From the IMG/VR virus record IMGVR_UViG_3300048838_001836, positions 1 through 35,793 of that record: a DNA stretch of 35,793 nt, one strand, 5' to 3'. This DNA is from a virus. Each line of letters opens with the position of its first letter. Within the stretch, counting starts at the first letter, position 1. Shown here piece by piece: positions 24,459 to 34,662 of this stretch. The translations under genes and the position numbers were made by a program. The notes under the pieces were generated by a model that worked only from the letters and a program-made list of their open reading frames with translations, was not told where the DNA came from and made no database searches.

Positions 24459-24555
24459 CGCACCAGCGCTGGTATGTGCCGTATAGCGCCTGCGGGTCTG
24501 CGGCGGAGCCTGCCGACGCAGCCCACGCGTCAACAAATTCTTTTTCTGTGGTCAT
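24268..24555 (-). CDS. Hypothetical protein downstream of Cro-like gene (95 aa)
   Basis: Starts MTTEKEFVDAWAASAGSA with ALYGTYQRWCASS; the C-terminal half is basic and less protein-like. ATG 24555 overlaps the Cro-like TGA (ATGA), and the strong leftward terminator T1 lies further downstream, which fits a cro-X operon. It is antisense to the 75-aa gene over its full length, so one of them is probably not functional. Confidence 0.4.
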   Translation of the reverse strand: MTTEKEFVDAWAASAGSAADPQALYGTYQRWCASSLPQSRPPSQSPEELFLQEWPRRKSFFVQAEPVAVRMLRAALLAFASLKQKLARLVRRVWR

Positions 24556-24749
24556 GCTGCTTTCTCCTGCTGATCTTCGAATAGGTCAGGCCGGGCGGCC
24601 TTCAGGTGCAGCAGGCGGGCGTTCGGAATGCGGCCCTGCTTGCGGAACTTGGAGACCGCCTGCCGTGTTATCTCAAAAAATTGCGCGGCCGCGACGTCGC
24701 CCCCAAGGGCCTCGACAACTTCGTCAACATTGATAGGTGATGTGCTCAT
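24552..24749 (-). CDS. Cro/YdaS-like repressor (65 aa)
   Basis: VDEVVEALGGDVAAAQFFEITRQAVSKFRKQGRIPNARLLHLKAARPDLF is the typical Cro/YdaS helix-turn-helix pattern, with recognition helix around TRQAVSKFRKQG. ATG 24749 is the first Met in a protein-like context but has no Shine-Dalgarno, so leaderless translation or an alternative start is possible. It diverges from the CI-like gene across 70 bp containing the shared palindrome, and would shift the switch to lytic growth by blocking CI synthesis. Confidence 0.8.
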   Translation of the reverse strand: MSTSPINVDEVVEALGGDVAAAQFFEITRQAVSKFRKQGRIPNARLLHLKAARPDLFEDQQEKAA

Positions 24750-24819: not shown

Positions 24820-25152
24820 ATGAGCACGCTGGCCGAACGAATCAAGGAAATAATGGATGCGACCGGGCTGACCATCCAGCAGATGGCAGATATATGCGGA
24901 TGCAGCTATCAGGCCGTGAAAAAGTGGACTACTGGCGCATCCACAAGCATTGGCGGAGAGCACCTGATCTCCCTGGCGGAAAAGACTGGCTACGAGGCAA
25001 AATGGATCATCACGGGCAAAGGCCCGAAGCACCGGACATACGCGAAGAACGAGATCCAGGCAGATACGCTTTGCACCATGGAAAAACTACCCGCAGCTGA
25101 TCAATATAAGATCCGTGCAGTCGCCGAGGTGATCAGCGACACGCAGCATTAA
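24820..25152 (+). CDS. CI-like lysogeny repressor, short form (110 aa)
   Basis: N-terminal XRE-type HTH (LAERIKEIMDATGLTIQQMADICGCSYQAVKKWTTG, recognition helix about 28-36), then ISLAEKTGYEAKWIITGKGP, a frequent helical end of phage repressors. The C-terminal 35 residues are helical. There is no S24 peptidase domain, so RecA-stimulated self-cleavage is not expected and induction must work otherwise. ATG 24820 lacks a Shine-Dalgarno, as in leaderless cI transcripts; the upstream in-frame extension is the antisense of the Cro-like gene. Confidence 0.8.
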   Translation: MSTLAERIKEIMDATGLTIQQMADICGCSYQAVKKWTTGASTSIGGEHLISLAEKTGYEAKWIITGKGPKHRTYAKNEIQADTLCTMEKLPAADQYKIRAVAEVISDTQH

Positions 25153-25170
25153 CCACAAAAGGGATTCGCC

Positions 25171-25662
25171 ATGGCGCTCATCAAGTGCGGGGAATGTGGC
25201 AAGCAGTTTTCGACGGACGCCAAAGCCTGCCCGCATTGCGGCGGCAAGGCGCCATACAAACCCGGCGCGGCATTCATCCTGGTCGTCGGCCTGCTGATCG
25301 TCTTCGGCATCAGTGCATCGATTGAATCGAGCCAGCCGCCGCCCGAGGCCGCGCCAAAGACAGCCGAGCAGATTGCACAGGACCAAGCCCAGGAACGCCG
25401 CCATCTGGTCGTACTCATCACCGCAAAAAAACTGAAGGACTCCATGCGCGAGCCCGATTCGGTCGAATGGCTCTACATGGGCACCGACGAAAAGGCCGAG
25501 GTAGTGTGCCTGCGCTACCGAGCCCGCAACGGGTTCGGCGGCATGGCGGTCGAGACCATGACCATCACCACCAAGGAAGCCGGACAGGAAGCCGAGCTAT
25601 GGAACCGCCACTGCATCCGCGACGGCCTCTATGACATGCTGTATGTCCGCAATGCCATCTAG
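25171..25662 (+). CDS. Zinc-ribbon membrane protein (163 aa)
   Basis: An N-terminal zinc ribbon (CGECGKQFSTDAKACPHCGG: CxxC-11-CxxC) is followed by one membrane segment (about 34-52, AAFILVVGLLIVFGISASI) and a periplasmic or cytoplasmic domain of 110 residues (LKDSMREPDSVEWLYMGTD, VVCLRYRARNGFGGM). The C-terminal domain is seen in phage and bacterial membrane proteins of unknown function. AAAGGGA precedes ATG 25171. Directly downstream of the repressor, so probably expressed in the lysogen. A superinfection-exclusion or lysogenic-conversion role is a guess from position. Confidence 0.75.
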   Translation: MALIKCGECGKQFSTDAKACPHCGGKAPYKPGAAFILVVGLLIVFGISASIESSQPPPEAAPKTAEQIAQDQAQERRHLVVLITAKKLKDSMREPDSVEWLYMGTDEKAEVVCLRYRARNGFGGMAVETMTITTKEAGQEAELWNRHCIRDGLYDMLYVRNAI

Positions 25663-25667
25663 CCGCC

Positions 25668-25871
25668 ATGATCCAGCCCGACGTTGTTTCTGTAATCAAG
25701 GATGACGAAAGAGACATCACCTATCGCATTGTTGCCTACCGCGCCCTAACGTATGCGGAGAAGGTTTCCGCCGTGCGGACCTTCCTCGCCCAAAAGAAAA
25801 AGCCAAAGCTCAAAACCGGCTCCACCATCACCATCCTGACCATCATCGGCCACGACGCGCCTGCCGCCTGA
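25668..25871 (+). CDS. Hypothetical small protein (67 aa)
   Basis: MIQPDVVSVIKDDERDITYRI... with a YRALTYAEKVSAVRTFLAQKK helix and a beta end STITILTIIGHD. No family recognised. It follows the zinc-ribbon gene by 5 bp, so it is likely co-transcribed. The 3' end overlaps, in convergent orientation, a 49-codon ORF on the other strand. Confidence 0.55.
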   Translation: MIQPDVVSVIKDDERDITYRIVAYRALTYAEKVSAVRTFLAQKKKPKLKTGSTITILTIIGHDAPAA

Positions 25872-25992
25872 TCCATCGTAGTTTCCCCGGCGTAAGCATC
25901 TTTCCACCATTGCGGTGGAACTCTTGCTCAACAGCCCGCCACACCCTGGCAGGCAGTGCCCGCCATCCCGCATAAGCGACAACCGTTTCCAT
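25843..25992 (-). CDS. Short basic ORF behind a repressor-controlled promoter (49 aa)
   Basis: ATG 25992 to TGA 25843 encodes METVVAYAGWRALPARVWR, then AVEQEFHRNGGKML, and a strongly basic end WIRRQARRGR. AAGG lies about 9 nt before the ATG. It is the first open frame after a near-consensus leftward promoter (-35 26090-26095, -10 26066-26071) that carries the CI/Cro palindrome in its spacer. The TTCCACC...GGTGGAA inverted repeat in this stretch lies inside the ORF. No family recognised; a small DNA- or RNA-binding protein is possible. Confidence 0.45.
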   Translation of the reverse strand: METVVAYAGWRALPARVWRAVEQEFHRNGGKMLTPGKLRWIRRQARRGR

Positions 25993-26009
25993 CTGTAGCG
26001 CCTTTTTAA

Positions 26010-26024
26010 CCCGCCCAAGGCGGG
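26010..26024. other. GC hairpin in leader between promoter and 49-aa ORF
   Basis: CCCGCC-CAA-GGCGGG, 6-bp perfect stem. On the minus strand it is followed by TTAAAAAGG and on the plus strand by a later T-rich stretch, so it is only a weak terminator either way; it may be an attenuator or mRNA-stability element. Confidence 0.4.
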
Positions 26025-26048
26025 CGTGGATTTATTTTGCCATAAAAT

Positions 26049-26062
26049 TGAACTACAGTTGC
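26049..26062. promoter_or_regulatory. Operator-like site O3 (one mismatch)
   Basis: TGAACTACAGTTG: the same arms as the palindromes at 24758 and 26072 with one base changed, centred about 23 bp from O2, roughly two helical turns. It covers the expected start point of the leftward promoter. Confidence 0.55.
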
Positions 26063-26065
26063 ATT

Positions 26066-26095
26066 ATTATATGAACTATGGTTCAATCATTCCAA
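26066..26095 (-). promoter_or_regulatory. Strong leftward promoter with operator in spacer
   Basis: Minus strand: TTGGAA, 18-bp spacer, TATAAT. The spacer is TGAT plus the 14-bp palindrome, an arrangement that would let a bound repressor block RNA polymerase. Predicted start about 26059. I find no equally good rightward promoter for the 26218 operon in this region. Confidence 0.65.
26072..26085. promoter_or_regulatory. Operator palindrome O2
   Basis: TGAACTATGGTTCA, the exact reverse complement of O1 at 24758, 1.3 kb away. The 132 bp from here to the first gene (26218) are an untranslated leader with no further assigned element. Confidence 0.75.
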
Positions 26096-26217
26096 CGGCC
26101 GCGCTGGCCGACCGAACAGCGCCGCAGCCTGGCAGCGATACAGGCCGTAACGGGATAACGAGAGCCCCGCGACAGGCAGGGAGAGAACCGGCACCAGACA
26201 ACTTTCAGGAGTGTGTG

Positions 26218-26430
26218 ATGGCTGAGATGACTGAACTTGAAAAGCTGATCGCCCGGATCTGGGCGCGCAGCCTGGGCACCACCGATTCGTGGTGGGGCGT
26301 GTACCAGACGCTGACCGATCTGGCGGACGGGCTGCAGGCCGCGTGGCGCGATGCCGACGCCGACGCGGTGCGCACGGCGGCTTATGTGGCGATGGATCAT
26401 TCGATTACACGGATTCGGGAGGCAGCATGA
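26218..26430 (+). CDS. Hypothetical early protein (70 aa)
   Basis: MAEMTELEKLIARIWARSLGTTDSWWGVYQTLTDLADGL... entirely helical, acidic, with Trp pairs. AGGAG 7 nt before ATG 26218. First gene of a tightly packed rightward operon downstream of the operators. Function unknown. Confidence 0.65.
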   Translation: MAEMTELEKLIARIWARSLGTTDSWWGVYQTLTDLADGLQAAWRDADADAVRTAAYVAMDHSITRIREAA

Positions 26431-26681
26431 CTTTCACTGAAAAATGCACACTGGCTGCAGATGCGGTGGAAAAGCTGCAGCGCGAGGGGTATGTGGTCGC
26501 GTCGATAAACATCCGGTATTACGAATACACCCCTGAAGTACAGCTCAGATGTGATTCCAAAGTGCCATCCGACTGGGGCTTCAAATACCCCGACACAGAC
26601 AGCACGCTGGTACAGACCACGATGCACGGCGTGATCGTGTGGTGGAATTCAGCGCGCGAAGAAACGGCGGTGGCAGCATGA
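26427..26681 (+). CDS. Hypothetical early protein (84 aa)
   Basis: MTFTEKCTLAADAVEKLQREGYVVASINIRYYEYTPEVQLRC... alpha then beta, ending TMHGVIVWWNSAREE. ATGA overlaps with both neighbours. No family recognised; alpha-beta layout without catalytic motif. Confidence 0.65.
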   Translation: MTFTEKCTLAADAVEKLQREGYVVASINIRYYEYTPEVQLRCDSKVPSDWGFKYPDTDSTLVQTTMHGVIVWWNSAREETAVAA

Positions 26682-26845
26682 ACGGCCTGCACACCCGCAA
26701 CACCCTCCGCCACGCCTTCCGCACCGCCACGCCGCGCTCACGGCAAACCCAACTCGACAGCTTTGAAACCATGCTGGCGAAATTGTGCTGGGTGGGCGTG
26801 ATCGCCCTGCTGGTGGTGCAGATCGCCGACATGATGGGGGCTTGA
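26678..26845 (+). CDS. Small membrane protein (55 aa)
   Basis: A basic, Arg-rich N-terminus (NTLRHAFRTATPRSRQ) then one membrane helix (LAKLCWVGVIALLVVQIADMM). Overlaps the upstream gene by 4 bp. Function unknown. Confidence 0.6.
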   Translation: MNGLHTRNTLRHAFRTATPRSRQTQLDSFETMLAKLCWVGVIALLVVQIADMMGA

Positions 26846-26847
26846 CC

Positions 26848-26961
26848 ATGAAAACCACAGTCCTGGTGTTGGCCGTTTCAATCCCGTTTCTGGTCGTTGC
26901 CGTGAGCGAACTGCTCGACGTGTTCAAGCCGTTGCTGGCGGCGCTTGGGGGTGCAGCATGA
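26848..26961 (+). CDS. Very small membrane protein (37 aa)
   Basis: MKTTVLVLAVSIPFLVVAVSELLDVFKPLLAALGG: one hydrophobic N-terminal helix and a short amphipathic end. ATG 26848 follows the previous TGA by 2 nt and its own TGA overlaps the next ATG (ATGA), which supports it as a real gene despite its size. Confidence 0.6.
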   Translation: MKTTVLVLAVSIPFLVVAVSELLDVFKPLLAALGGAA

Positions 26962-27158
26962 TCCCGCCCATCGTCACCACCACCCCGGCGCCCTACTGCC
27001 CGCTGCCCGACGCAGACCGCCGTCGCCCCTATGTGAAATCCGACAAAACCGACATCCTCCGCACGATCAGCGAGCACAGCCGTCTGGCCATTCTGGACGA
27101 CTACGACCGCACCGACGCGCTCGGCCATCTTGAACTTCCCGGAGCCTTTGCAAAATGA
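26958..27158 (+). CDS. Hypothetical early protein (66 aa)
   Basis: Pro-rich start (MIPPIVTTTPAPYCPLPDADR), then a charged helical part (DILRTISEHSRLAILDDYD). ATGA overlaps at both ends. No family recognised. Confidence 0.6.
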   Translation: MIPPIVTTTPAPYCPLPDADRRRPYVKSDKTDILRTISEHSRLAILDDYDRTDALGHLELPGAFAK

Positions 27159-27712
27159 GCGCAAAAAACGACGCCTACAAACCCGATGTTTTGCTGCAAA
27201 GCCAGCTTCGCCGGCAGGCCCTGCTCGACATCCTCAACGCCAGCCAGGGCATGGACTACTACGCCCTGTGCGACGCGATGGCAGCGCACCCCGGCAAATA
27301 CCCGTCAACCAGCATGCGCGGCACCATCGCCAACATGATCCACCGTGGCGAGATTGAATCTCGCGGCGAGAAAAAAGCCGGCTTCCGGTTTTTTGCCAAC
27401 GTGAAAACCACCATCAGCGCCGAGCTGCTGCTGGCCAACCACAAGGCCAAGGGCCGCGCCTGCAATCATCGGCACTATGATGCGCGGGTCCAGAACAAGG
27501 GCGTGGCACAACGCGCCGCGCGCCGCAGCCAGCGCGAGATCCGCGAAGCCGCCGAGGCAGCCGAGGCCGCGAAGAAAGCCGAAAAAGCCCGCCGCAACAA
27601 CCTCGGCTGTCCCCGCTATGTGCACGAACCCGGCAAGCATCCCAACGCCGATTCGCGCGGACAGGGCGCACTGCGTCCGCGTGTGCACGTCAACTGTTAT
27701 CAGCTTTACTGA
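27155..27712 (+). CDS. Winged-helix-like DNA-binding protein, putative (185 aa)
   Basis: Residues about 15-80 (QLRRQALLDILNASQGMDYYALCDAMAAH, then MRGTIANMIHRGEIESRGEKKAGFRFFAN) look like a winged helix: three helices then a beta hairpin. A basic/Ala-rich helix follows (RSQREIREAAEAAEAAKKAEKARR), and a C-terminal region with RYVHEPGKHPNADSRG. Largest gene of the early operon; a regulatory or DNA-handling role is inferred from the fold pattern only. Confidence 0.6.
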   Translation: MSAKNDAYKPDVLLQSQLRRQALLDILNASQGMDYYALCDAMAAHPGKYPSTSMRGTIANMIHRGEIESRGEKKAGFRFFANVKTTISAELLLANHKAKGRACNHRHYDARVQNKGVAQRAARRSQREIREAAEAAEAAKKAEKARRNNLGCPRYVHEPGKHPNADSRGQGALRPRVHVNCYQLY

Positions 27713-27722
27713 GAGGCCCGGC

Positions 27723-27941
27723 ATGATCAACATGGACGAACTTTTCCTGCGCTGGCACCAGGCCACCGTGCGCAACAACCTGCAAGCCTGGCGCGCGCTG
27801 TCCTACTGGCTGGCGGCCGAATCGCTGATGGCCGAGGTGGACAGCCAGCCGGAAGAAGCAGCCGACATGGGCCTGCTGTCCGATCTGGCCATGCAGTACG
27901 TGGCCGACCTGAGCGGCAACCACATGGAGGCCGCCGCTTGA
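27723..27941 (+). CDS. Hypothetical early protein (72 aa)
   Basis: MINMDELFLRWHQATVRNNLQAWRALSYWLAAESLMAEV... helical, acidic, Trp-rich, similar in character to the 70-aa gene at 26218. GAGAGG precedes ATG 27723. Function unknown. Confidence 0.6.
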   Translation: MINMDELFLRWHQATVRNNLQAWRALSYWLAAESLMAEVDSQPEEAADMGLLSDLAMQYVADLSGNHMEAAA

Positions 27942-28120
27942 ACACCCGCGAAGACCTGCTGCAAGCCGCAGACGAAGCCTGGCAGCGCCACAGCCAGCCG
28001 ATCAAACTGCCCGCCGGCGCCGACAGCACCATCCAGCCCTGCTGCCTGATGGCGCAGCGCGGATTCAAACTCGCGCTGATCGAAGTGGTCGAGAAACTGT
28101 GCGGAAAGGAGCAGCCATGA
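27938..28120 (+). CDS. Hypothetical early protein, TTG start (60 aa)
   Basis: NTREDLLQAADEAWQRHSQPIKLPAGADST... helical, with two Cys (PCCLM). The TTG at 27938 overlaps the upstream TGA (TTGA); no ATG is available, so coupling-dependent initiation is likely. Confidence 0.5.
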   Translation: MNTREDLLQAADEAWQRHSQPIKLPAGADSTIQPCCLMAQRGFKLALIEVVEKLCGKEQP

Positions 28121-28407
28121 CCCGCCCGCCTGTCACCTACCGCGTCAACCTGGCCGACCTTGAATTGTTTGCCGACGCCGCATGCAAAGACACCGGCATG
28201 AGTGGAGCAGCGATGAATGAAGCGATGCGGGAATTTGTGTTGAAAAGCGGCGAGATTGAACGGCTACGCGAGATTGAAGCGGCGGCACGCAACCTTGTGG
28301 TACAGAAAGGACGGCACCATACCCAGCAAGCCTATGAACGGCTGGCCGGGCTGGTGCTGCCCAACGCTTGCGGTGAGCCGGGCCTTACGGACACCGGCAA
28401 GGATTGA
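28117..28407 (+). CDS. Hypothetical phage protein with attC-encoded C-terminus (96 aa)
   Basis: ATG 28117 overlaps the upstream TGA and has AAGGAG 6 nt before it, so its 5' end belongs to the phage operon. The body (NLADLELFADAACKDTGMSGAAMNEAM) resembles a small RHH- or toxin-antidote-like helical protein, but no family is firm. From about residue 82 the coding sequence runs into attC site A, so the last ~14 residues (NACGEPGLTDTGKD) are encoded by integron DNA. The original 3' end of the phage gene seems to have been replaced when the array joined here. Confidence 0.6.
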   Translation: MTRPPVTYRVNLADLELFADAACKDTGMSGAAMNEAMREFVLKSGEIERLREIEAAARNLVVQKGRHHTQQAYERLAGLVLPNACGEPGLTDTGKD

Positions 28408-28445
28408 AGACGCTGGCGGGCCTCGGCTCGACCGGATTGTTGGGC
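28359..28445 (+). repeat. attC site A
   Basis: GCCCAAC at 28359-28365 and GTTGGGC at 28439-28445, perfectly complementary, with inner GGTGAGCCG/CGGCTCGACC arms. 87 bp. It encodes the end of the phage gene at 28117 and carries a TTG-started frame KTLAGLGSTGLL in its 3' half. Confidence 0.9.
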
Positions 28446-28470
28446 GCGGACATAGAGCGAAGGAGAGAAA

Positions 28471-28905
28471 ATGAAGCAACAGCACACACTAATGAAGATT
28501 TGCCCGGCGTTTGGCACGGAGAAGCCGTGGCCGAGCCATGCGCAGCAATGGCGGGACTACCACGGCCAGATGGCTTGGCTTTTCAACCCTTGGACAGGGA
28601 ACAGACGACACCCTGCCGACATCGGTAGCGACCCACTTGGCTGGCTGATCTTGCCGCCAGATGAGCGCGTGTACGCGGCGCAAAACGCGAATCGAATAAA
28701 TGCCGAAGCATTGAAATTAGCAAACGCGTGGGAAACGCGCGCCCGCAAAAAGTTCGCCGATGCGGCGCACGAAGAATGCCCAACGGGAAAACGATTCATA
28801 GAGCATGGCGCTGTTTGTTATGCGAATGCGGCGCTCGAAATCCGCGATGCTTTTGGCTTGACGCCCAACGCTCAAGGTGAGCCGGGGGCCACGAAAGATG
28901 ACTGA
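28471..28905 (+). CDS. Cassette 1: hypothetical protein (144 aa)
   Basis: ATG 28471 is preceded by GAAGGAGAG, a strong Shine-Dalgarno. N-terminal half has PAFGTEKPWPSHAQQWRDYHG and many Trp/Pro; the second half is helical with two Cys (EECPTGKRF, AVCYANAALEIRD). No family recognised. The last ~12 residues (NAQGEPGATKDD) are encoded by attC B, so the stop lies inside the recombination site, as is common for cassettes. Cassette spans 28440-28942. Confidence 0.75.
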   Translation: MKQQHTLMKICPAFGTEKPWPSHAQQWRDYHGQMAWLFNPWTGNRRHPADIGSDPLGWLILPPDERVYAAQNANRINAEALKLANAWETRARKKFADAAHEECPTGKRFIEHGAVCYANAALEIRDAFGLTPNAQGEPGATKDD

Positions 28906-28948
28906 GACAACGAAGCTCCAAACCCTCGGCTCGACCGCAGAGTTAGAA
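28863..28948 (+). repeat. attC site B
   Basis: R'' GCCCAAC 28863-28869; R' GTTAGAA 28942-28948 (the core of the next cassette). 86 bp, closely similar to sites A and E. Contains an in-frame ATG (28898) for the next cassette gene. Confidence 0.9.
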
Positions 28949-28951
28949 CCA

Positions 28952-29212
28952 ATGCCTCAATGGAGCTGCGAGCGTTGTCGTGGGACAGGATGGGCAAGCG
29001 CTGCGCGGGACAGCGGAACTGATACCTTGCCACCGATGATGCGGGAAATAGGGATATACAAATGCCCGGCTTGTGGCGGTGCTGGGAAGTTAGGGCTTAC
29101 CGAAGAGCAACAAGCCGCAATAAGGGAGGCAGTAAAACGGATGGGTTCTAACGCAAACGGTAAGGGGCCGGCTGAAAGCCGGTCCCGCTTGACCAACGGG
29201 TTGGAGGGCTAG
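28952..29212 (+). CDS. Cassette 2: small zinc-finger-like protein (86 aa)
   Basis: Two CxxC pairs about 33 residues apart (CERCRGTGWAS and YKCPACGGAGKLG) resemble the DnaJ-type zinc finger seen in many small phage and cassette proteins; the C-terminal half is a helix (TEEQQAAIREAVKRM). ATG 28952 lies 9 bp inside the cassette but lacks a Shine-Dalgarno. An in-frame ATG at 28898, inside attC B and overlapping the cassette-1 stop, would add 18 residues (MTETTKLQTLGSTAEL...) and give coupled translation. The stop lies 12 bp into cassette 3. Confidence 0.7.
   Translation: MPQWSCERCRGTGWASAARDSGTDTLPPMMREIGIYKCPACGGAGKLGLTEEQQAAIREAVKRMGSNANGKGPAESRSRLTNGLEG
29146..29206 (+). repeat. attC site C
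   Basis: R'' TTCTAAC 29146-29152; R' GTTGGAG 29200-29206. 61 bp; central hairpin GGGGCCGGCT...AGCCGGTCCC. A different, shorter attC type from A, B and E. Confidence 0.88.
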
Positions 29213-29424
29213 GTGATGGTTTTGAGGCGGAACAACTCCCAGAACGCCGGGTGCATGCGCCGGTCTCCGGCCTCCCACTGCTGCCATGTGCGGCATGTGG
29301 TGTGCACTAGATCGGCGGCGGCGGTTTGCGAAAGCCCCGCCGCCTCTCGGGCTGCGCGAACTTCCTCCTGGGATGGATTCCGCGCCGGGCTACCGGCCCG
29401 GCTTCGGTTGGGGTGGTTACCCAC
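29209..29424 (-). CDS. Cassette 3: XRE-type HTH regulator (71 aa)
   Basis: NPSQEEVRAAREAAGLSQTAAADLVHTTCRTWQQWEAGDRRM is a clear HTH of the XRE family (recognition helix about HTTCRTWQQWEAG), ending HPAFWELFRLKTIT. GTG 29424 overlaps the stop of the 82-aa gene by 8 nt, so the two are coupled. In an antisense-oriented cassette with its own promoter, a DNA-binding second gene suggests an autoregulated pair such as an antitoxin-type regulator. The toxin assignment of the partner is unproven. Confidence 0.7.
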   Translation of the reverse strand: MGNHPNRSRAGSPARNPSQEEVRAAREAAGLSQTAAADLVHTTCRTWQQWEAGDRRMHPAFWELFRLKTIT

Positions 29425-29665
29425 GAAGCGCGACCTGCCAGCGCTCCAGGTAGAACAGTCGGTTTTCTTCGATAGAAGGGATGTCGGGGTGGTCGGAAAC
29501 TTCGATGTCGGTAATGTGAAGTTCGGTGACATGGGCAGCGATCCAGTCTTCGCCACGGGCACGAATTTGAGCGGCCAGCTTTTCAACAAAAGCGCGGGCC
29601 TTGTCGCTGGGCGCTTCGTTGTAGAGGGCTTCGACTGCGACTTCAAAGTTTTTGATGGCGTTCAT
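29417..29665 (-). CDS. Cassette 3: hypothetical protein upstream of HTH gene (82 aa)
   Basis: MNAIKNFEVAVEALYNEAP..., helical, then a mixed region with several acidic residues (ITDIEVSDHPDIPSIEEN) and an end LERWQVALRG. ATG 29665 has GGAG about 8 nt before it. First gene of a two-gene operon read against the array direction; the partner is an XRE regulator. No family recognised; a toxin role would fit the gene-pair layout of integron TA cassettes but its sequence does not look like RelE, HigB or other common toxins. Confidence 0.6.
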   Translation of the reverse strand: MNAIKNFEVAVEALYNEAPSDKARAFVEKLAAQIRARGEDWIAAHVTELHITDIEVSDHPDIPSIEENRLFYLERWQVALRG

Positions 29666-29720
29666 TTTTGGCTCCAGCCCCTGAGTCCCGAGGCGCGGTT
29701 GTGGCGTATCCACAACCCGA

Positions 29721-29748
29721 ATAATACGCGCATTGCGCGTAATGTCAA
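29721..29748 (-). promoter_or_regulatory. Cassette-internal promoter with palindromic operator
   Basis: Minus strand TTGACA (29743-29748), 16-bp spacer, TATTAT (29721-29726): near consensus. The spacer is covered by the perfect palindrome TACGCGCA-T-TGCGCGTA (29725-29741). A second 8-bp inverted repeat, GGTTGTGG-5 nt-CCACAACC (29697-29717), spans the expected start point. Both fit autoregulation by the HTH protein of this cassette. Confidence 0.8.
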
Positions 29749-29787
29749 TGGGTTTCAGAAAATAAATTCACGAGGGCGGATCAAGCC

Positions 29788-29855
29788 CTCCAACGCCTAG
29801 CTAACCGGCGCAGGCGGCTTTATCGCCTGCGTCCGAGTTGAGCGACGTGTTAGCA
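29788..29855 (+). repeat. attC site D
   Basis: R'' CTCCAAC 29788-29794; R' GTTAGCA 29849-29855. 68 bp, central hairpin CGCAGGCGGCTTTATCGCCTGCG. Closely related to site H in its centre (GGCGGCTTTATCGCC). Confidence 0.88.
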
Positions 29856-29904
29856 GTTTTTTTGAAAAGTCGGCGCTTGTGAGACGGCGCAGGAAAGGAA
29901 GAAA

Positions 29905-30591
29905 GTGAATGAGTTGGCTTTATTCGCGGGCGCTGGTGGAGGACTGCTTGGAACAGAAGCACTTGGACTGCGAACAATCTGCGCTGTTGAATTGGATTGG
30001 CACCGCAGATGCGTTCTCACACAGCGACAAAATGAGCGACACCTACGAAGTGTTTTCCCGATATGGGATGACATTCGTTCCTTTGACGGCGGACCGTGGC
30101 GCGGCAGAGTTGATGTTGTTACTGGAGGGTTTCCTTGTCAGGCATTTAGCACGGCGGCTAGAGGGCGCAACAATGCGCCTAACCTCTGGCCAGAGATGCG
30201 TAGGGTGATTTTTGAAGTGAGGCCGGACTATGTATTTGCAGAAAACGTGTCACCAGTCGCCATCGAGCAAGCAGCAAACGATTGCACCGCGATGGGTTAC
30301 AAAACCGAAATGCTTTCCCTTTCAGCGAAAGACTTGGGTGCTGACCACGAAAGGGAAAGATTTTGGCTTCTTGCATACACCAACGACAAAAGCGAACTAC
30401 GCAGCCACATCGATGCAGAAATGGCCGGTTTGCCGGAATTTTGTGGAAGTGTTTGGGAGGCCGGACCCGATCAATCACGAATGGCTGATGGGTTGGCCGG
30501 AAGGATGGAGCGATACGAGGCGACTGGAAACGGACAGGTTCCGATTGTGGCAGCAGCGGCACTATGGAGTCTTGCACATGCTGACTGCTAA
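29905..30591 (+). CDS. Cassette 4: small C5-cytosine DNA methyltransferase (228 aa)
   Basis: Transfers methyl from SAM to C5 of cytosine. Motif I LFAGAGGGLLG (6-16), motif IV GGFPCQAFS with nucleophile Cys78, motif VI AENV (112-115), motif VIII DHERERFWLLA (147-157) and a C-terminal motif X GNGQVPIVAAAALW are all present. At 228 aa it is shorter than usual, mainly because the target-recognition region between VIII and X is only about 50 residues. GTG 29905 is preceded by AGGAAAGGAAG. The TAA is formed by the attC R'' core. No restriction enzyme is adjacent, so it is an orphan methylase, perhaps anti-restriction. Confidence 0.9.
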   Translation: MNELALFAGAGGGLLGTEALGLRTICAVELDWHRRCVLTQRQNERHLRSVFPIWDDIRSFDGGPWRGRVDVVTGGFPCQAFSTAARGRNNAPNLWPEMRRVIFEVRPDYVFAENVSPVAIEQAANDCTAMGYKTEMLSLSAKDLGADHERERFWLLAYTNDKSELRSHIDAEMAGLPEFCGSVWEAGPDQSRMADGLAGRMERYEATGNGQVPIVAAAALWSLAHADC

Positions 30592-30672
30592 CGCTTAGGT
30601 GAGCCGGGGCTTACGAAAATGAACCCAAGCACGAAGACGCTCGCAGCCCTCGGCTCGACCGACGTGTTATGC
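30586..30672 (+). repeat. attC site E
   Basis: R'' TGCTAAC 30586-30592; R' GTTATGC 30666-30672. 87 bp, same family as A and B. Contains the start of a 24-codon leader ORF. Confidence 0.9.
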
Positions 30673-30693
30673 GCGGCAACCACTAGGAGATAA
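30619..30693 (+). CDS. attC-borne leader ORF (24 aa) before cassette 5 gene
   Basis: ATG 30619 inside attC E; MNPSTKTLAALGSTDVLCAA..., stop TAA 30691-30693 just 2 nt before the next ATG and overlapping its Shine-Dalgarno region. Its KTLAxLGST core matches frames opened by attC A and B. Probably works as a translation-coupling leader rather than as a functional peptide. Confidence 0.4.
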   Translation: MNPSTKTLAALGSTDVLCAATTRR

Positions 30694-30695
30694 CG

Positions 30696-30944
30696 ATGGG
30701 TTTTGGAAACAGGAATGGGGCGCTGATCGTGGCCTCGCTGGCTGGCCTGACTGGCGGATTTGGTTTGGAGTCTCAATTCACAGCAACGCGAGCACACAAG
30801 GAGCCGGACAACAGAGGCCGCAGGGCTGAGAAGGACGCGACCAAACTGGAGAAGGCAGAGGAAAAGCGGAAGCGCAGAGCAGCAAAGCGACTGGCGCATA
30901 ACGCCAGCGGTAAGCCGACCACGGAAGCGGCAAAGCCGCTGTAG
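30696..30944 (+). CDS. Cassette 5: small basic protein (82 aa)
   Basis: MGFGNRNGALIVASLAGLTGGFG is Gly-rich and moderately hydrophobic; the rest is a highly charged Lys/Arg/Glu/Ala helix (KDATKLEKAEEKRKRRAAKR). AGGAG precedes ATG 30696. The C-terminal ~15 residues are attC F-encoded. No family recognised. Confidence 0.6.
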   Translation: MGFGNRNGALIVASLAGLTGGFGLESQFTATRAHKEPDNRGRRAEKDATKLEKAEEKRKRRAAKRLAHNASGKPTTEAAKPL

Positions 30945-30971
30945 TGGGTCGGCTTGACCAAAGAGTTGGAC
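30896..30971 (+). repeat. attC site F
   Basis: R'' GCATAAC 30896-30902; R' GTTGGAC 30965-30971 (fits GTTRRRY). 76 bp; inner arms GGTAAGCCGACC/GGTCGGCTTGACC and a GCGGCAAAGCCGC hairpin. Confidence 0.9.
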
Positions 30972-31020
30972 ACGGCTGGTTGACAAAGCCGCGATTTTGC
31001 AAGAAAGCGAGGTTGACAAA

Positions 31021-31368
31021 ATGGGCGAAATGCAAGGACTGCCAGGCGAGCAATACACGCCGAGCAACTCGGACGAAGGGTATGCGTTTTTGGGGCAATG
31101 GTGTGCTAATTGCCAGCGCGACAAATCCATGCGCGAAGGCTGCGATTTTGATGAATGCGACGACAACGAGAAGTGCGACATTATCGCCGCATCGTTTCGC
31201 GGCGAGGCGGTCGAGTGGCGCGATACTGGCACCGGGCTTATTTGCACCGAGTTTGTGCCAGCAGGGGAGAAGGTGCCAGAGCGCTGTCTACTGACCGTGG
31301 ACATGTTTGAGGCGGCGTCCAACGCCCAAGTGAGGGGCTGCCCGCCCCACGAACCTGAAAAGGAGTGA
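31021..31368 (+). CDS. Cassette 6: Cys-rich hypothetical protein (115 aa)
   Basis: Contains a cysteine cluster WCANCQRDKSMREGCDFDECD followed by NEKCDIIAASF, and later TGTGLICTEFVPAGE and PERCLLTVDMF. The spacing suggests metal binding. ATG 31021 has GAGG 8 nt before it; a TTG at 30997 in frame is an alternative start. The C-terminus (NAQVRGCPPHEPEKE) is encoded by attC G. Cysteine-rich content links it to cassettes 7 and 8. No family recognised. Confidence 0.65.
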   Translation: MGEMQGLPGEQYTPSNSDEGYAFLGQWCANCQRDKSMREGCDFDECDDNEKCDIIAASFRGEAVEWRDTGTGLICTEFVPAGEKVPERCLLTVDMFEAASNAQVRGCPPHEPEKE

Positions 31369-31439
31369 CGACGATGGAGCAGCTACAAGCCGACACAAGC
31401 GCCGATGGCGGGCAGTCCCGCTCGACTGACGTGTTAGAG
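31317..31439 (+). repeat. attC site G (long)
   Basis: R'' GTCCAAC 31317-31323; R' GTTAGAG 31433-31439. 123 bp, the longest in the array; inner arms GGGGCTGCCCGCC/GGCGGGCAGTCCC. Includes AAGGAG and the ATG (31374) of the next cassette gene. Confidence 0.88.
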
Positions 31440-31748
31440 GCTGGCTTTGATGAGCGCGAGTGCCTGAAATACTGGCCGTTTGATGGCGACTTCGGGCACC
31501 CGAGCGACAAGATTTTGAAGGACAAGATCGGGATTGCCCGCAAGGCTGGGCCGTGCTGCGAATGCCTGACAGAGATACAGCCGGGCGAGCGCATACGGAT
31601 GATAGGCGCGATCTTTGACGACCAGATGATGAGCTATCGGTATTGCTCGGCGTGCTGCTCGGCGATGGCCGAAATGTGGACAGGCAACTGGAACGCGATG
31701 GATGCGCGATGGGAAGTCAGGGCACGGAACGAAGCTTCTAACGCCTGA
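31374..31748 (+). CDS. Cassette 7: zinc-binding-like protein, initiated inside attC G (124 aa)
   Basis: The start at 31374 lies inside the preceding attC with AAGGAG about 8 nt upstream, so the N-terminus (MEQLQADTSADGGQSRSTDVL) is attC-encoded. The body carries ARKAGPCCECLTEIQPGERI and YRYCSACCSAMAEMW, the same CCEC...PGE...C-x2-C layout as cassette 8, which points to a shared zinc-binding fold. A GTG at 31365 in frame is an alternative start. The stop lies in attC H. Function unknown. Confidence 0.7.
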   Translation: MEQLQADTSADGGQSRSTDVLEAGFDERECLKYWPFDGDFGHPSDKILKDKIGIARKAGPCCECLTEIQPGERIRMIGAIFDDQMMSYRYCSACCSAMAEMWTGNWNAMDARWEVRARNEASNA

Positions 31749-31799
31749 ATTCACAGGCGGGCGGCTTTATCGCCCGTCCGGTGGAATGACGGGTTATGC
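31736..31799 (+). repeat. attC site H
   Basis: R'' TTCTAAC 31736-31742; R' GTTATGC 31793-31799. 64 bp, centre GGGCGGCTTTATCGCCCG. R'' has one mismatch to cassette 7's own 5' core (GTTAGAG), the only imperfect match in the array. Confidence 0.86.
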
Positions 31800-31823
31800 C
31801 ACTGCTTCAACTTGGAGAAAACA

Positions 31824-32183
31824 ATGAGTTGTTACTGTTATTACGATGGCCCGGAGTTCCTCAGCACCGACACCAGGACGGCAAGAAAGCAGCACGTGTG
31901 CTGTGAGTGTGGGCACGTGATCGAGCCGGGCGAAAAATACGAGCACGTGGCCGGGAAGTGGGACGGCAGGCTCGACACTTTTGACACCTGCGGAATGTGC
32001 GTGGAACTGCGCGAAGCGGTAGCCGACTACAACGGCGGGTGCTTCCAATACGGCGGGCTTGACGAAGCCTATTGGGCCTACCTTGAGGAATTGCCACCAC
32101 GCGACGGGATGGACACTCACGCGCTGCACGCTGGCGTGTTTGCAAAGCACCGGATGGGGCATAACTTAAATTCGACGACATAA
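31824..32183 (+). CDS. Cassette 8: zinc-binding-like protein (119 aa)
   Basis: MSCYCYYDGPEF..., then RKQHVCCECGHVIEPGEKYEH, WDGRLDTFDTCGMCVELRE, and a helical, acidic C-terminal part (YGGLDEAYWAYLEELPP). The CCEC/TCGMC arrangement resembles small phage zinc-binding proteins and is paralogous to cassette 7. ATG 31824 has TTGGAG 7 nt before it. The reading frame passes through the terminal R'' core and stops at 32183, beyond the cassette, so its last residues (NLNSTT) come from the intI-side flank. Confidence 0.7.
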   Translation: MSCYCYYDGPEFLSTDTRTARKQHVCCECGHVIEPGEKYEHVAGKWDGRLDTFDTCGMCVELREAVADYNGGCFQYGGLDEAYWAYLEELPPRDGMDTHALHAGVFAKHRMGHNLNSTT

Positions 32184-32230
32184 GATTGTCCACCAATCCC
32201 GCCAACTGTCCGCCAATCTGGCACGACCAC
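32159..32230 (-). other. Array-intI junction, candidate attI (reverse orientation)
   Basis: GCATAAC at 32159-32165 is cassette 8's R'' core, but the usual attC continuation (AACGC, L'' arm, R' core) is missing. Read on the minus strand it is G|TTATGC, the core expected of an attI next to the 5' end of intI. Two direct repeats TGTCC-R-CCAATC at 32187 and 32207 (20-bp period) lie between it and intI, similar in arrangement to IntI accessory repeats. The attI identity is inference. Confidence 0.5.
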
Positions 32231-32246
32231 CACGGAGAACCGCATC

Positions 32247-33269
32247 ATGACTGAAACAATCGAACACAACGCGACAGCACAACCGGACACGCCAGCCGTG
32301 TCCGCCAAACCGCGCCTGCTCGATCAGATGCGCGAAATCATCCGGGTCAAGCACTACAGCATCCGCACCGAGAAAACCTACATCGGATGGGTGCGGCAGT
32401 TCATCCGCTGGAGCGGCATGCGCCATCCGGCCGACATGGGCGCGGCCGAGGTCGAGGCGTTTTTATCCATGCTGGCCAATCAGCGCGACGTATCTGGCAG
32501 CACGCAGAACCAGGCGCTGGCCGCGCTGCTGTTTTTATACAAGCAGGTGCTCGGTATCGACCTGCCGTGGCTCGAAGGCATCACCCGCGCCAAGAAGCCG
32601 GCGCGGCTTCCGGTTGTGCTCACCCAGGCCGAAGTCGCCGCCATCATCGGCCACAACAGCGGCACCAATGGACTCATCATCCGCCTGCTGTACGGCACCG
32701 GCATGCGCCTCATGGAAGCCCTGCGCCTGCGCATCAAGGACATCGAACTCGCCAGCAACATCATCCTGGTGCGCGGCGGCAAGGGCGACAAGGACCGCGT
32801 CGTGCCATTGCCATCCAGCCTGCTGCAGTCGCTGCGCGACCAGATCGCGGCCCGGCGCAAAATGCACGACATCGACCTAGCACGCGGCATGGTCGACGTT
32901 GAACTGCCGCACGCGCTCTGGAAAAAATACCCCAACGCGCCCAAGGAATGGGCGTGGCAGTATGTGTTCGCAGCCGCCGACTACAGCGCCGACCCGCGCA
33001 CCGGCGTCATAAGGCGGCACCACATCCACGAAAAAACCATCCAGCGCGCCATGCGCGCCGCCGTCATCGCGTCCGGCATCCACAAGCCGGCCTCATGTCA
33101 CACTTTGAGACACAGTTTTGCGACGCACCTGCTCGAACACGGCACCGACATCCGCACCATCCAGCAGCTGCTTGGCCACAGCGACGTGAGCACCACCATG
33201 ATCTACACCCACGTCATCAACAAAGGCGCGGCCGGTGCGCTGAGTCCGCTCGACAGGATCAGCGCATGA
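32247..33269 (+). CDS. intI: Integron integrase (IntI-type tyrosine recombinase, 340 aa)
   Basis: Full length compared with IntI1 (337 aa). N-terminal SAM-like core-binding region (about 22-115: YSIRTEKTYIGWVRQFIRW). Catalytic residues: Arg154 (YGTGMRLMEALRLR), Lys near GGKGDKDR (179/182), His285/Arg288 (CHTLRHSFATHL), His311 (LLGHSDVSTTMIYTH) and Tyr320. Residues about 223-243 (ALWKKYPNAPKEWAWQYVF) are the extra helix specific to integron integrases, absent from XerC/D, which makes the call secure. GGAGA lies 9 nt before ATG 32247. Its TGA overlaps the next ATG (ATGA), joining it to the excisionase-integrase pair. It would recombine attC sites as folded bottom strands. Confidence 0.95.
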   Translation: MTETIEHNATAQPDTPAVSAKPRLLDQMREIIRVKHYSIRTEKTYIGWVRQFIRWSGMRHPADMGAAEVEAFLSMLANQRDVSGSTQNQALAALLFLYKQVLGIDLPWLEGITRAKKPARLPVVLTQAEVAAIIGHNSGTNGLIIRLLYGTGMRLMEALRLRIKDIELASNIILVRGGKGDKDRVVPLPSSLLQSLRDQIAARRKMHDIDLARGMVDVELPHALWKKYPNAPKEWAWQYVFAAADYSADPRTGVIRRHHIHEKTIQRAMRAAVIASGIHKPASCHTLRHSFATHLLEHGTDIRTIQQLLGHSDVSTTMIYTHVINKGAAGALSPLDRISA

Positions 33270-33544
33270 CCGCATCCGCACTCACCCGCCAGCAGCTATG
33301 CGCGGCCCTCACCATCAGCGAGTCCACCGTGCGCCGGCTCGAACTCGACGGCATGCCCTATACTCCAGTCGGGATCAGGGCAAAACGCTATGATCTGGAA
33401 GAATGCAAGCAATGGCTGCGGGATAATCAATGTCAATCTGGACAGACAAACAAGGGCGGCGCCACGTCGGCATTATGGCCGGAGGCCGCCGAGTTCATCG
33501 CATCCTACCGCAAGGCTCAACTGCGGGTGATGCCAAGCAGCTAG
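33266..33544 (+). CDS. Excisionase-like / MerR-type HTH protein (92 aa)
   Basis: LTRQQLCAALTISESTVRRLELDGMPYTPVGIRAKRYDLEECKQWL is an HTH of the excisionase/AlpA type with a wing. The C-terminal tail (SALWPEAAEFIASYRKAQLRVMPSS) overlaps the integrase start by 115 nt in another frame; phage excisionase genes of this kind often end with such an LRVMPS tail over the integrase start. ATG 33266 overlaps the intI stop. Likely directs excision together with the integrase. Confidence 0.75.
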   Translation: MTASALTRQQLCAALTISESTVRRLELDGMPYTPVGIRAKRYDLEECKQWLRDNQCQSGQTNKGGATSALWPEAAEFIASYRKAQLRVMPSS

Positions 33545-34374
33545 AATCCGAACTGCGCGGCGCGCTCGCGCTCGAAAAGAAACCGCGCATTCCAGGCGAC
33601 CCGCGCCTCACCGAAGTCATCAGCCTATACATCGCCCACGCCGACACCCTGCGCAGCGCATCCACCGCCAAACACCACGCCAACCGCATCGGACCATGGC
33701 TCGAAAAATACCGCGCCAGCCAATCCCGCCAGGCCGCCGCCCACATCATCAAGGACATGACCGGACACTACGCCGCCGGCACCATCAACAAAAGCCTGGG
33801 CACCCTCAAAAAAGCCCTGAACATTGCCTGGACCAGCGAACTCACCGCCACCGACTACAGCGCGCACGTCAAACGCATCCCCGAAAACAACGCCCGCAGC
33901 ATCTACCTAACCATCGAACAAGTGCAGGCCATCGCCGCCCGCTGCAGCCCGCCCATGCAAGCCGCCATCTGGATCGCCCTGATGACCGGAGCCCGGCGCG
34001 GCGAAATCTGCAAACTCAAGGCCAAAGACATCAGCCGCGACAGCATCCTGCTGCATTCCGGCAACACCAAAACCCTGCGCACCCGCACCGTGCCCATCGT
34101 CGCCCCCGTGCGGCCATGGCTCAAACTGATCCCGCTGGCCATCAAGCCCGAAGGCATCAAAACCGCATGGCGGCGCGCACGCGAAGCCGAAGGCATGCCC
34201 GACATCAACTTCCACGACCTGCGCCACAGCTGCGCCAGCATCCTCATCGCCAGCGGAGCCGACCTCTACACCGTATCCAAGATACTAGGCCACGCCAGCG
34301 TCAAAACCACCGAGCGCTATGCGCACATGAAAATCGAACAGCAGCGCGCCGCGCTCGATCACGCTTTCAAATAA
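33430..34374 (+). CDS. Phage site-specific tyrosine integrase (314 aa)
   Basis: Inserts and excises the prophage at the adjacent tRNA. N-terminal arm-binding-like part (MSIWTDKQGRRHVGIMAGGR), core-binding region (about 60-145), catalytic domain with Arg189 or Arg190 (MTGARRGEICKL), His262/Arg265 (FHDLRHSCASI), His288 (ILGHAS) and Tyr297 (TTERYAHM). ATG 33430 is chosen because the matching phage integrase N-terminus begins here, inside the excisionase gene. The stop is 8 bp from the tRNA 3' end, the usual place for a phage integrase. Confidence 0.95.
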   Translation: MSIWTDKQGRRHVGIMAGGRRVHRILPQGSTAGDAKQLESELRGALALEKKPRIPGDPRLTEVISLYIAHADTLRSASTAKHHANRIGPWLEKYRASQSRQAAAHIIKDMTGHYAAGTINKSLGTLKKALNIAWTSELTATDYSAHVKRIPENNARSIYLTIEQVQAIAARCSPPMQAAIWIALMTGARRGEICKLKAKDISRDSILLHSGNTKTLRTRTVPIVAPVRPWLKLIPLAIKPEGIKTAWRRAREAEGMPDINFHDLRHSCASILIASGADLYTVSKILGHASVKTTERYAHMKIEQQRAALDHAFK

Positions 34375-34381
34375 CATGGAA

Positions 34382-34456
34382 TGGTGGGCGATACTGGGAT
34401 CGAACCAGTGACTTCCACCGTGTGAAGGTGGCACTCTACCGCTGAGTTAATCGCCC
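34382..34456 (-). tRNA. tRNA-Val (CAC)
   Basis: Complete cloverleaf: GGGCGAT acceptor, ACTC/GAGT D-stem, CCACC-TTCACAC-GGTGG anticodon arm giving anticodon CAC, T-arm ACTGG-TTCGATC-CCAGT, ATCGCCC then A and encoded CCA. Its 3' end faces the integrase, so it is the likely attB/attR location. Confidence 0.95.
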
Positions 34457-34524
34457 GCTTTTTTGAGCGGATTACACCGAAAATTACACAGACCGCCGTG
34501 GAAGCCGCGCCAATGCTAGCGTGA

Positions 34525-34568
34525 CCCTGCCGTGTGAAGGCAGTGCTCTACCACTGAGCTAACTGCCC
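34525..34568 (-). pseudogene. 5' half of a second tRNA-Val(CAC), 3' half missing
   Basis: GGGCAGT acceptor strand, GCTC/GAGC D-stem and CTGCC-TTCACAC-GGCAG anticodon arm are intact, but after GGTCAC the sequence no longer forms a T-arm (no TTCGA) and the 3' acceptor strand is absent. It looks like a tRNA cut by integration or deletion. The ~65 bp between the two tRNA regions hold no gene. Confidence 0.75.
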
Positions 34569-34662
34569 GAAGCGGCGCGAATTAAACCATAACCCGATGC
34601 CCACGGTCAATTTTGCGGCGCGCTATCCAGTAAAATAGCGGGTTTCGTCGCTCGGCCCTGTC

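Follow-up and report, generated by a model that had tools for sequence, protein, structure and literature searches.

Analysis of the IMG/VR virus record IMGVR_UViG_3300048838_001836 (35,793 nucleotides; this whole stretch is referred to as the window) reveals an integron within the provirus of a temperate tailed phage. Its array of eight attC sites and cassettes begins at position 28359, at the end of a plus-strand phage operon, and on the 3' side of the array lie the integron integrase gene (intI), an excisionase-like gene (xis), a phage tyrosine integrase gene (int), a tRNA-Val and the host gene gltX. Integrons are a standard example of bacterial gene capture, and an earlier note on this DNA, made from the letters alone, had proposed that a complete one resides here inside a prophage.

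The search for attC sites used a covariance model, R1, trained on 40 sites of chromosomal integrons and on no phage site; gene direction and attI fixed the canonical strand of the training integrons. With filters off, R1 recovers in the window the same eight sites as the earlier note, at exactly the same coordinates, with 31.4 to 53.6 bits (E 1.8e-5 to 1e-10). All of them are on the minus strand: attC 1 at the distal end of the array (28359-28445; 41.5 bits, E 7.2e-8), attC 2 (28863-28948; 38.7 bits, E 3.3e-7), attC 3 (29146-29206; 31.4 bits, E 1.8e-5), attC 4 (29788-29855; 42.9 bits, E 3.4e-8), attC 5 (30586-30672; 41.6 bits, E 7e-8), attC 6 (30896-30971; 31.6 bits, E 1.6e-5), attC 7 (31317-31439; 36.0 bits, E 1.5e-6) and attC 8, closest to intI (31736-31799; 53.6 bits, E 1e-10). 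The sites have paired R and L boxes and extrahelical bases. Beyond these eight, the next best match over the 35.8 kb window reaches only 12.6 bits (E 0.48), and on about 139 kb of sequence from phages of the IntI clade described below, away from most of their arrays, the sole matches are five sites of one array (L097). At gathering thresholds Rfam reports the tRNA-Val alone in the window and no attC-like family. Single attC sites folded as DNA give z-scores from -0.3 to -4.1, which are too variable to be used alone, and an initial regular-expression scan, which overlooked sites because its box patterns were too strict, was replaced by the covariance model. Cassettes close as the earlier note had described, with seven of the eight box pairs complementary at 7/7 positions and one at 6/7. 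In a set of six phage loci, complementarity is 6/7 or better for 50 of 51 pairs, as compared to a mean of 23 and a maximum of 33 upon random re-pairing (2000 shuffles). In one relative (L083, 11610-13038) the array extends past intI, with four more attC sites downstream that share the strand of the upstream one.

The polarity of these sites does not agree with the earlier note, which had read it on the plus strand. The sites score 31-54 bits on the minus strand and no more than about 10 bits on the plus strand, which implies that the note's assignment of R'' and R' is inverted. R1 matches in clade relatives likewise lie on the strand opposite intI, both in 23 loci (121 of 121) and in 29 further ones (44 of 44), and the unpaired extrahelical bases are in the right arm, matching chromosomal integrons oriented in the same way. 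Comparison of two sister phages (L087 and L088) places the unit boundaries. Between the attI R box and a point 3 kb beyond intI their identity is 99.9%, and their cassettes differ. The breakpoints of exchange fall at RYYYAA|C, with blocks that start and stop at AAC; CTCC|AAC and a hairpin in L087 correspond to GCAT|AAC with the identical hairpin in L088, which has an additional unit. Each hairpin remains linked to its right-hand gene. A unit is thus a hairpin with the plus-strand gene that follows it, and the gene is therefore reversed relative to its attC. R-box closure in the window and these exchanges show cassettes as discrete exchangeable units, and the breakpoints point to recent exchange between the sister phages. 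As read from these patterns, the minus strand carries the recombining polarity, and the geometry of recombination is canonical. Of the boundaries that had been drawn from core/R'' complementarity, the closure stands but the plus-strand polarity does not.

The attI site is located immediately 5' of intI (32159-32240, minus strand). Its R box, GCATAAC (32159-32165; G^TTATGC on the minus strand), had been counted as half of a ninth attC site; it adjoins intI in the canonical place and is conserved across the clade. In relatives, the region immediately 5' of intI has the conserved form RYYYAAC-TTAAATTC-nn-CGACAcc, and TGTCG repeats often accompany it. On the minus strand the end of this attI is G^TTRRRY and faces the array, which is the canonical position.

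The integron integrase itself (intI, 32247-33269, plus strand) is 340 amino acids in length and scores 472.6 bits against TIGR02249 (cut-off 265), in agreement with the full-length IntI proposed earlier. It contains the full IntI-specific region (the additional domain) and the tyrosine-recombinase catalytic residues; the reading frame is open, and in our alignment the catalytic residues are invariant across the clade. Among 50,697 annotated phage records no relative with at least 60% identity was found, the best match being class 1 IntI at 57%, and viral contigs contain relatives of up to 84%. In a tree of 100 IntI sequences, the window groups with 17 other viral and three genome-derived sequences (support 100/99), and in a tree of 155 the clade has 51 members, 48 of them viral. 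When 24 genome loci are added, the clade has 52 members, namely 48 viral contigs and 4 bacterial assemblies (support 99). The Thiobacillus denitrificans RG locus (L003) is situated in a prophage-like region with the same type of phage integrase (77%) and the same gltX flank. Out of 369 genomes of the same class, 87 have a strong IntI match, and two of the 25 loci examined fall in the clade (L003's own and L214). The class 1 integrase IntI1, the Shewanella and Vibrio phage integrons and Virus Rctr41k are all outside it. Hence the window IntI groups with 48 viral sequences and not with host or class 1 integrases, with which the IntI of a captured host integron would group.

Virus Rctr41k (L203, KX853513), a virus from a denitrifying anaerobic methane oxidation (DAMO) enrichment, encodes an IntI-like protein annotated as xerD (4680-5678). 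The annotated genes of that stretch are all on one strand; the only candidate attC sites, from a loose scan, are downstream and were not confirmed by the covariance model. Four further viral IntI (L173, L192, L195 and L196) form separate groups outside the clade, which suggests that integron integrases have entered viruses independently on other occasions.

Usually, cassette genes of an integron are collinear with the attI-to-attC direction and are expressed from the Pc promoter at attI. The genes in the window run the opposite way: seven of the eight cassettes are on the plus strand, in the direction of the phage operon, the exception being a pair of helix-turn-helix (HTH) type in unit 3. Because the length of the longest open reading frame (ORF) is ambiguous in GC-rich arrays, a coding classifier (79.6% cross-validated accuracy) was added. 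For 107 closed cassettes of 23 clade loci it gives 66 toward attI, 9 away and 32 unclear (66 of 75 resolved cassettes opposite to the usual direction); by longest ORF alone the counts are 54, 18 and 35. In chromosomal integrons, 87 cassettes point away from attI and 11 toward it by longest ORF. These figures are quoted for chromosomes since the classifier is weaker there (33 away, 14 toward, 29 unclear). The contrast between phages and chromosomes is significant (Fisher P 6e-26), although the phage counts entering this test are those of the classifier and the chromosomal ones come from ORF length. In the window, four plus-strand cassette genes match PHROGs (phrog_363 methyltransferase, 6074, 19515 and 7314), while the direction of the remaining cassettes is based on ORF and start-codon anatomy.

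On its other side, the integron is wired into the phage integration module. The overlap between intI and xis is 4 bp in the window and in two relatives (L003 and L084). In most clade members intI overlaps the next ORF or is at most 20 bp from it, and this ORF is an excisionase-like gene or a phage integrase within a few bases. The position of IntI next to xis/int is recurrent in viral contigs, as the earlier note had raised, with 48 viral clade members mostly directly upstream of xis/int, and most members have a separate phage integrase. The clade is spread over unrelated myo- and siphophage backbones (TerL of phrog_15; phrog_9 with tail sheath; phrog_9 with lambda J-like fibre; phrog_2/3746). 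Two related phages (L210 and L211) have an integrase of the same type and no intI, and the covariance model gives no attC there. The module therefore seems to come and go as a whole at a single location, which from these sequences looks to be the end of the operon leading into xis/int.

These observations make it very probable that the window carries a complete integron of a phage-specialised lineage, whose reversed cassettes are collinear with the phage operon that runs into intI, xis and int. In the mechanism that we propose, IntI would recombine folded attC sites with the attI directly 5' of intI in canonical geometry, the folded strand being predicted to be the plus strand. Units of a hairpin and its right-hand gene would be cut at RYYYAA|C, and new cassettes would enter at attI, beside intI. 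Because the cassette genes are reversed relative to attC and attI, they form a collinear continuation of the operon from the CI-like repressor into intI-xis-int, and their expression would come from the far end by phage transcription and not from a Pc promoter at attI. In this way the phage may keep an exchangeable set of accessory genes, including a DNA methyltransferase and small zinc-ribbon and HTH proteins, a cargo that probably serves evasion of host defence or lysogeny. We also find it reasonably likely that tailed phages have their own dedicated and long-standing class of integron, with a mobile intI-attI module, reversed cassettes of captured phage accessory genes expressed from the phage operon and a separate gene pool, as a viral counterpart to the integrons of bacteria. 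To the same degree, it is plausible that the dedicated module moves between unrelated phages beside xis/int.

Several points weigh against this interpretation. The clade members are mostly metagenomic contigs, many of them incomplete, and the host integrons were sampled by similarity search, so non-phage members of the clade could be missed. About one third of the clade cassettes are unclear in direction, since long ORFs occur on both strands of GC-rich DNA. In a sigma-70 scan the CI-like gene showed no promoter from which the operon could be transcribed, and the hairpins of attC sites may act as transcription terminators. As to regulation, exact LexA boxes upstream of intI, which are a crude test, are present in none of 28 clade members and in 1 of 68 chromosomal integrons, which gives no support for SOS control of intI.

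It could be argued that the element is a fossil inherited along with the phage operon, with an IntI that is inactive or is used only for phage integration and excision, and that the cassettes came to differ through homologous recombination between phages. Recombination among phages is frequent, and intI is coupled to xis/int. However, intI is open with catalytic residues invariant across the clade, breakpoints fall exactly at core sites in 99%-identical phages, and most members encode a separate integrase of the phage type, which makes a fossil very unlikely. Nor do we expect the element to be an ordinary chromosomal integron captured by a prophage, as in Vibrio anguillarum p16 and Shewanella M16-3, with an accidental reversal of its genes. 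Such capture by phages is documented (PMC9892861), and Beta- and Gammaproteobacteria commonly have chromosomal integrons whose IntI is 58-64% identical to that of the window. However, the clade of the window IntI, with 48 viral sequences and 4 from genomes, is separate from the other sampled host IntI, the gene reversal is common to that clade, attI is conserved within it and phage protein families are present among the cargo, so that capture is very unlikely. Capture from a host superintegron was rejected on the grounds of phylogeny and gene direction. Finally, it is very unlikely that the attC polarity follows the genes on the plus strand, with recombination at GTTRRRY and inverted joining to attI via R'' (top-strand recombination), since ORF direction, a plus-strand reading of the boxes and the low-frequency top-strand recombination seen in assays (PMC9892861) are countered by the strand scores of the model, the extra bases in the right arm, the RYYYAA|C breakpoints and the hairpins tied to right-hand genes.

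The cassettes of this phage integron are made up as follows. Unit 1 (28365-28868, plus strand) consists of a hairpin and a gene for 144 amino acids (28471-28905), with a 65% identical partial homologue in L089, and unit 2 (28869-29151, plus strand) has a gene for an 85-residue protein resembling a CxxC zinc ribbon (28955-29212). Unit 3 (29152-29793, minus strand) encodes an HTH protein (29209-29430) and an 82-residue protein (29417-29665). It is the sole cassette with minus-strand genes and, according to the sigma-70 scan, holds the only strong sigma-70-like promoter of the array (29748-29721), which fits the expectation for a self-expressed cassette. Two copies of this HTH cassette are present in another phage (L095, 8809-9012 and 9475-9678), also on the minus strand. 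Unit 4 (29794-30591, plus strand) carries a C5 DNA methyltransferase (29905-30591; phrog_363). The C-terminal homology of this protein to L003 resumes in a different frame (window 30400-30600), and it is possible that the gene is frameshifted at its C-terminus. Unit 5 (30592-30901, plus strand) has a gene for 82 amino acids (30696-30944), and the gene of unit 6 (30902-31322, plus strand; gene 31021-31368) matches phrog_6074 and has a homologue in the same orientation in L085. The gene of unit 7 (31323-31741, plus strand) is inside 31365-31748 and matches phrog_19515, while that of unit 8 (31742-32164, plus strand; gene 31824-32183) matches phrog_7314/19515, and its last residues are encoded by attI. 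Several cassette genes cross the cut site into the adjoining hairpin, so exchange can alter their C-terminal tails. Phage protein families are thus included in the cargo by PHROG matches, and in a comparison of the array DNA with annotated phages the matches listed are mainly methyltransferase genes.

The flanks of the array are of phage origin by gene families, as the earlier note had held. Positions 1-24749 carry phage genes, mostly on the minus strand, including tape measure, endolysin, major head protein, portal and terminase and a primase-like protein with Toprim and VapE-like domains; the left end of the provirus is outside the record. TerL, portal, capsid and tail hallmarks are thus found together with an integrase at a tRNA. 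A regulator of the phage switch resembling Cro/YdaS (24552-24749, minus strand; weak sub-cut-off Pfam matches to P22_Cro and YdaS_toxin) is divergent from a CI-like repressor (24820-25152, plus strand; Phage_CI_repr and HTH_3 above cut-off, transcriptional repressor PHROGs), which is the first gene of the operon entering the array (24820-28407, plus strand; small, mostly overlapping genes by gene calls). The final gene of this operon before the array (28117-28407) stops within attC 1, so that the distal attC hairpin supplies the codons of its C-terminus. After intI follow xis (33266-33544, plus strand; phrog_66, E 2.3e-6, among other weak HTH families), which overlaps the intI stop at ATGA, and int (33430-34374, plus strand; phrog_1, 164.5 bits). 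The tRNA-Val(CAC) (34382-34456, minus strand; ARAGORN and Rfam) is the probable attachment site, and the host gene beyond it was recognised as gltX by sequence. Beside the complete tRNA-Val, a second, truncated tRNA-Val-like half (34500-34580) precedes gltX and is possibly the remnant of an earlier integration.

The residence of a complete integron in a prophage is therefore well founded here (covariance model, IntI model, flanks and viral contigs). Qi et al. (2023; PMC9892861) found three complete integrons, one In0 and 17 clusters of attC sites lacking integron integrases (CALINs) in 10,705 phage genomes, noted methyltransferase cassettes and reported that IntI1 recombines phage attC sites, so phage residence alone is not new. 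The part that appears new is the lineage, an IntI specific to phages that is combined with reversed cassettes in an intI-xis-int operon; a search of the open literature (subscription papers and preprints being outside the scope) found neither a phage clade of IntI nor a wholesale reversal of cassettes described. Earlier descriptions of phage carriage concern only rare captures of host or class 1 integrons, whereas the lineage in the window has an IntI almost confined to phages, its own attI, and cassette genes turned, probably to suit viral transcription. Such a system would let phages trade accessory genes, anti-restriction genes among them, in a site-specific manner, which would account for part of the mosaicism upstream of phage integrases. 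It would also be a natural test of gene orientation inside cassettes, pointing to promoter position and not recombination chemistry, and would open a route for cassettes between phage and bacterial integrons.

The phages of Qi et al. (Vibrio anguillarum p16, Shewanella M16-3 and E. coli P1) resemble the window in having a complete integron or In0 in a phage or prophage. However, their IntI is of host or class 1 type, 43-57% identical to that of the window and outside its clade. In p16 and M16-3 the annotated cassette genes point mainly away from intI, and the p16 integron adjoins host-type genes (L20, L35, an initiation factor and threonine-tRNA ligase). The CALINs of lytic phages described in the same study (Tetrasphaera phage TJE1 and others) share attC arrays and, in some cases, methyltransferase cassettes with the window, but have no IntI, and in TJE1 attC sites and genes are on the same strand, which is the canonical arrangement. 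Sedentary chromosomal integrons of Beta- and Gammaproteobacteria (Nitrosomonas, Thiobacillus, Methylobacter and Pseudomonas types) share with the window the IntI family (at 58-64% identity), the structure and polarity of attC, the position of attI between intI and the array, and the closure rule. They differ in genes directed away from attI (87:11), in having no coupling to phage xis/int and in belonging to other IntI clades. The layout of Treponema integrons is intI, then attI, then cassettes, and intI is the flipped part. As in the window, intI is transcribed in the direction of the cassettes there (PMC3607928). In the window, however, attI is 5' of intI and not 3' of it, and the cassette genes are the flipped part. 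Work on the artificially inverted superintegron of V. cholerae (PMC11023631) likewise concerns the orientation of an array and what it costs, but in that case the whole array including attC is flipped relative to replication, whereas in the window only the genes are turned and the attC sites remain canonical to attI.

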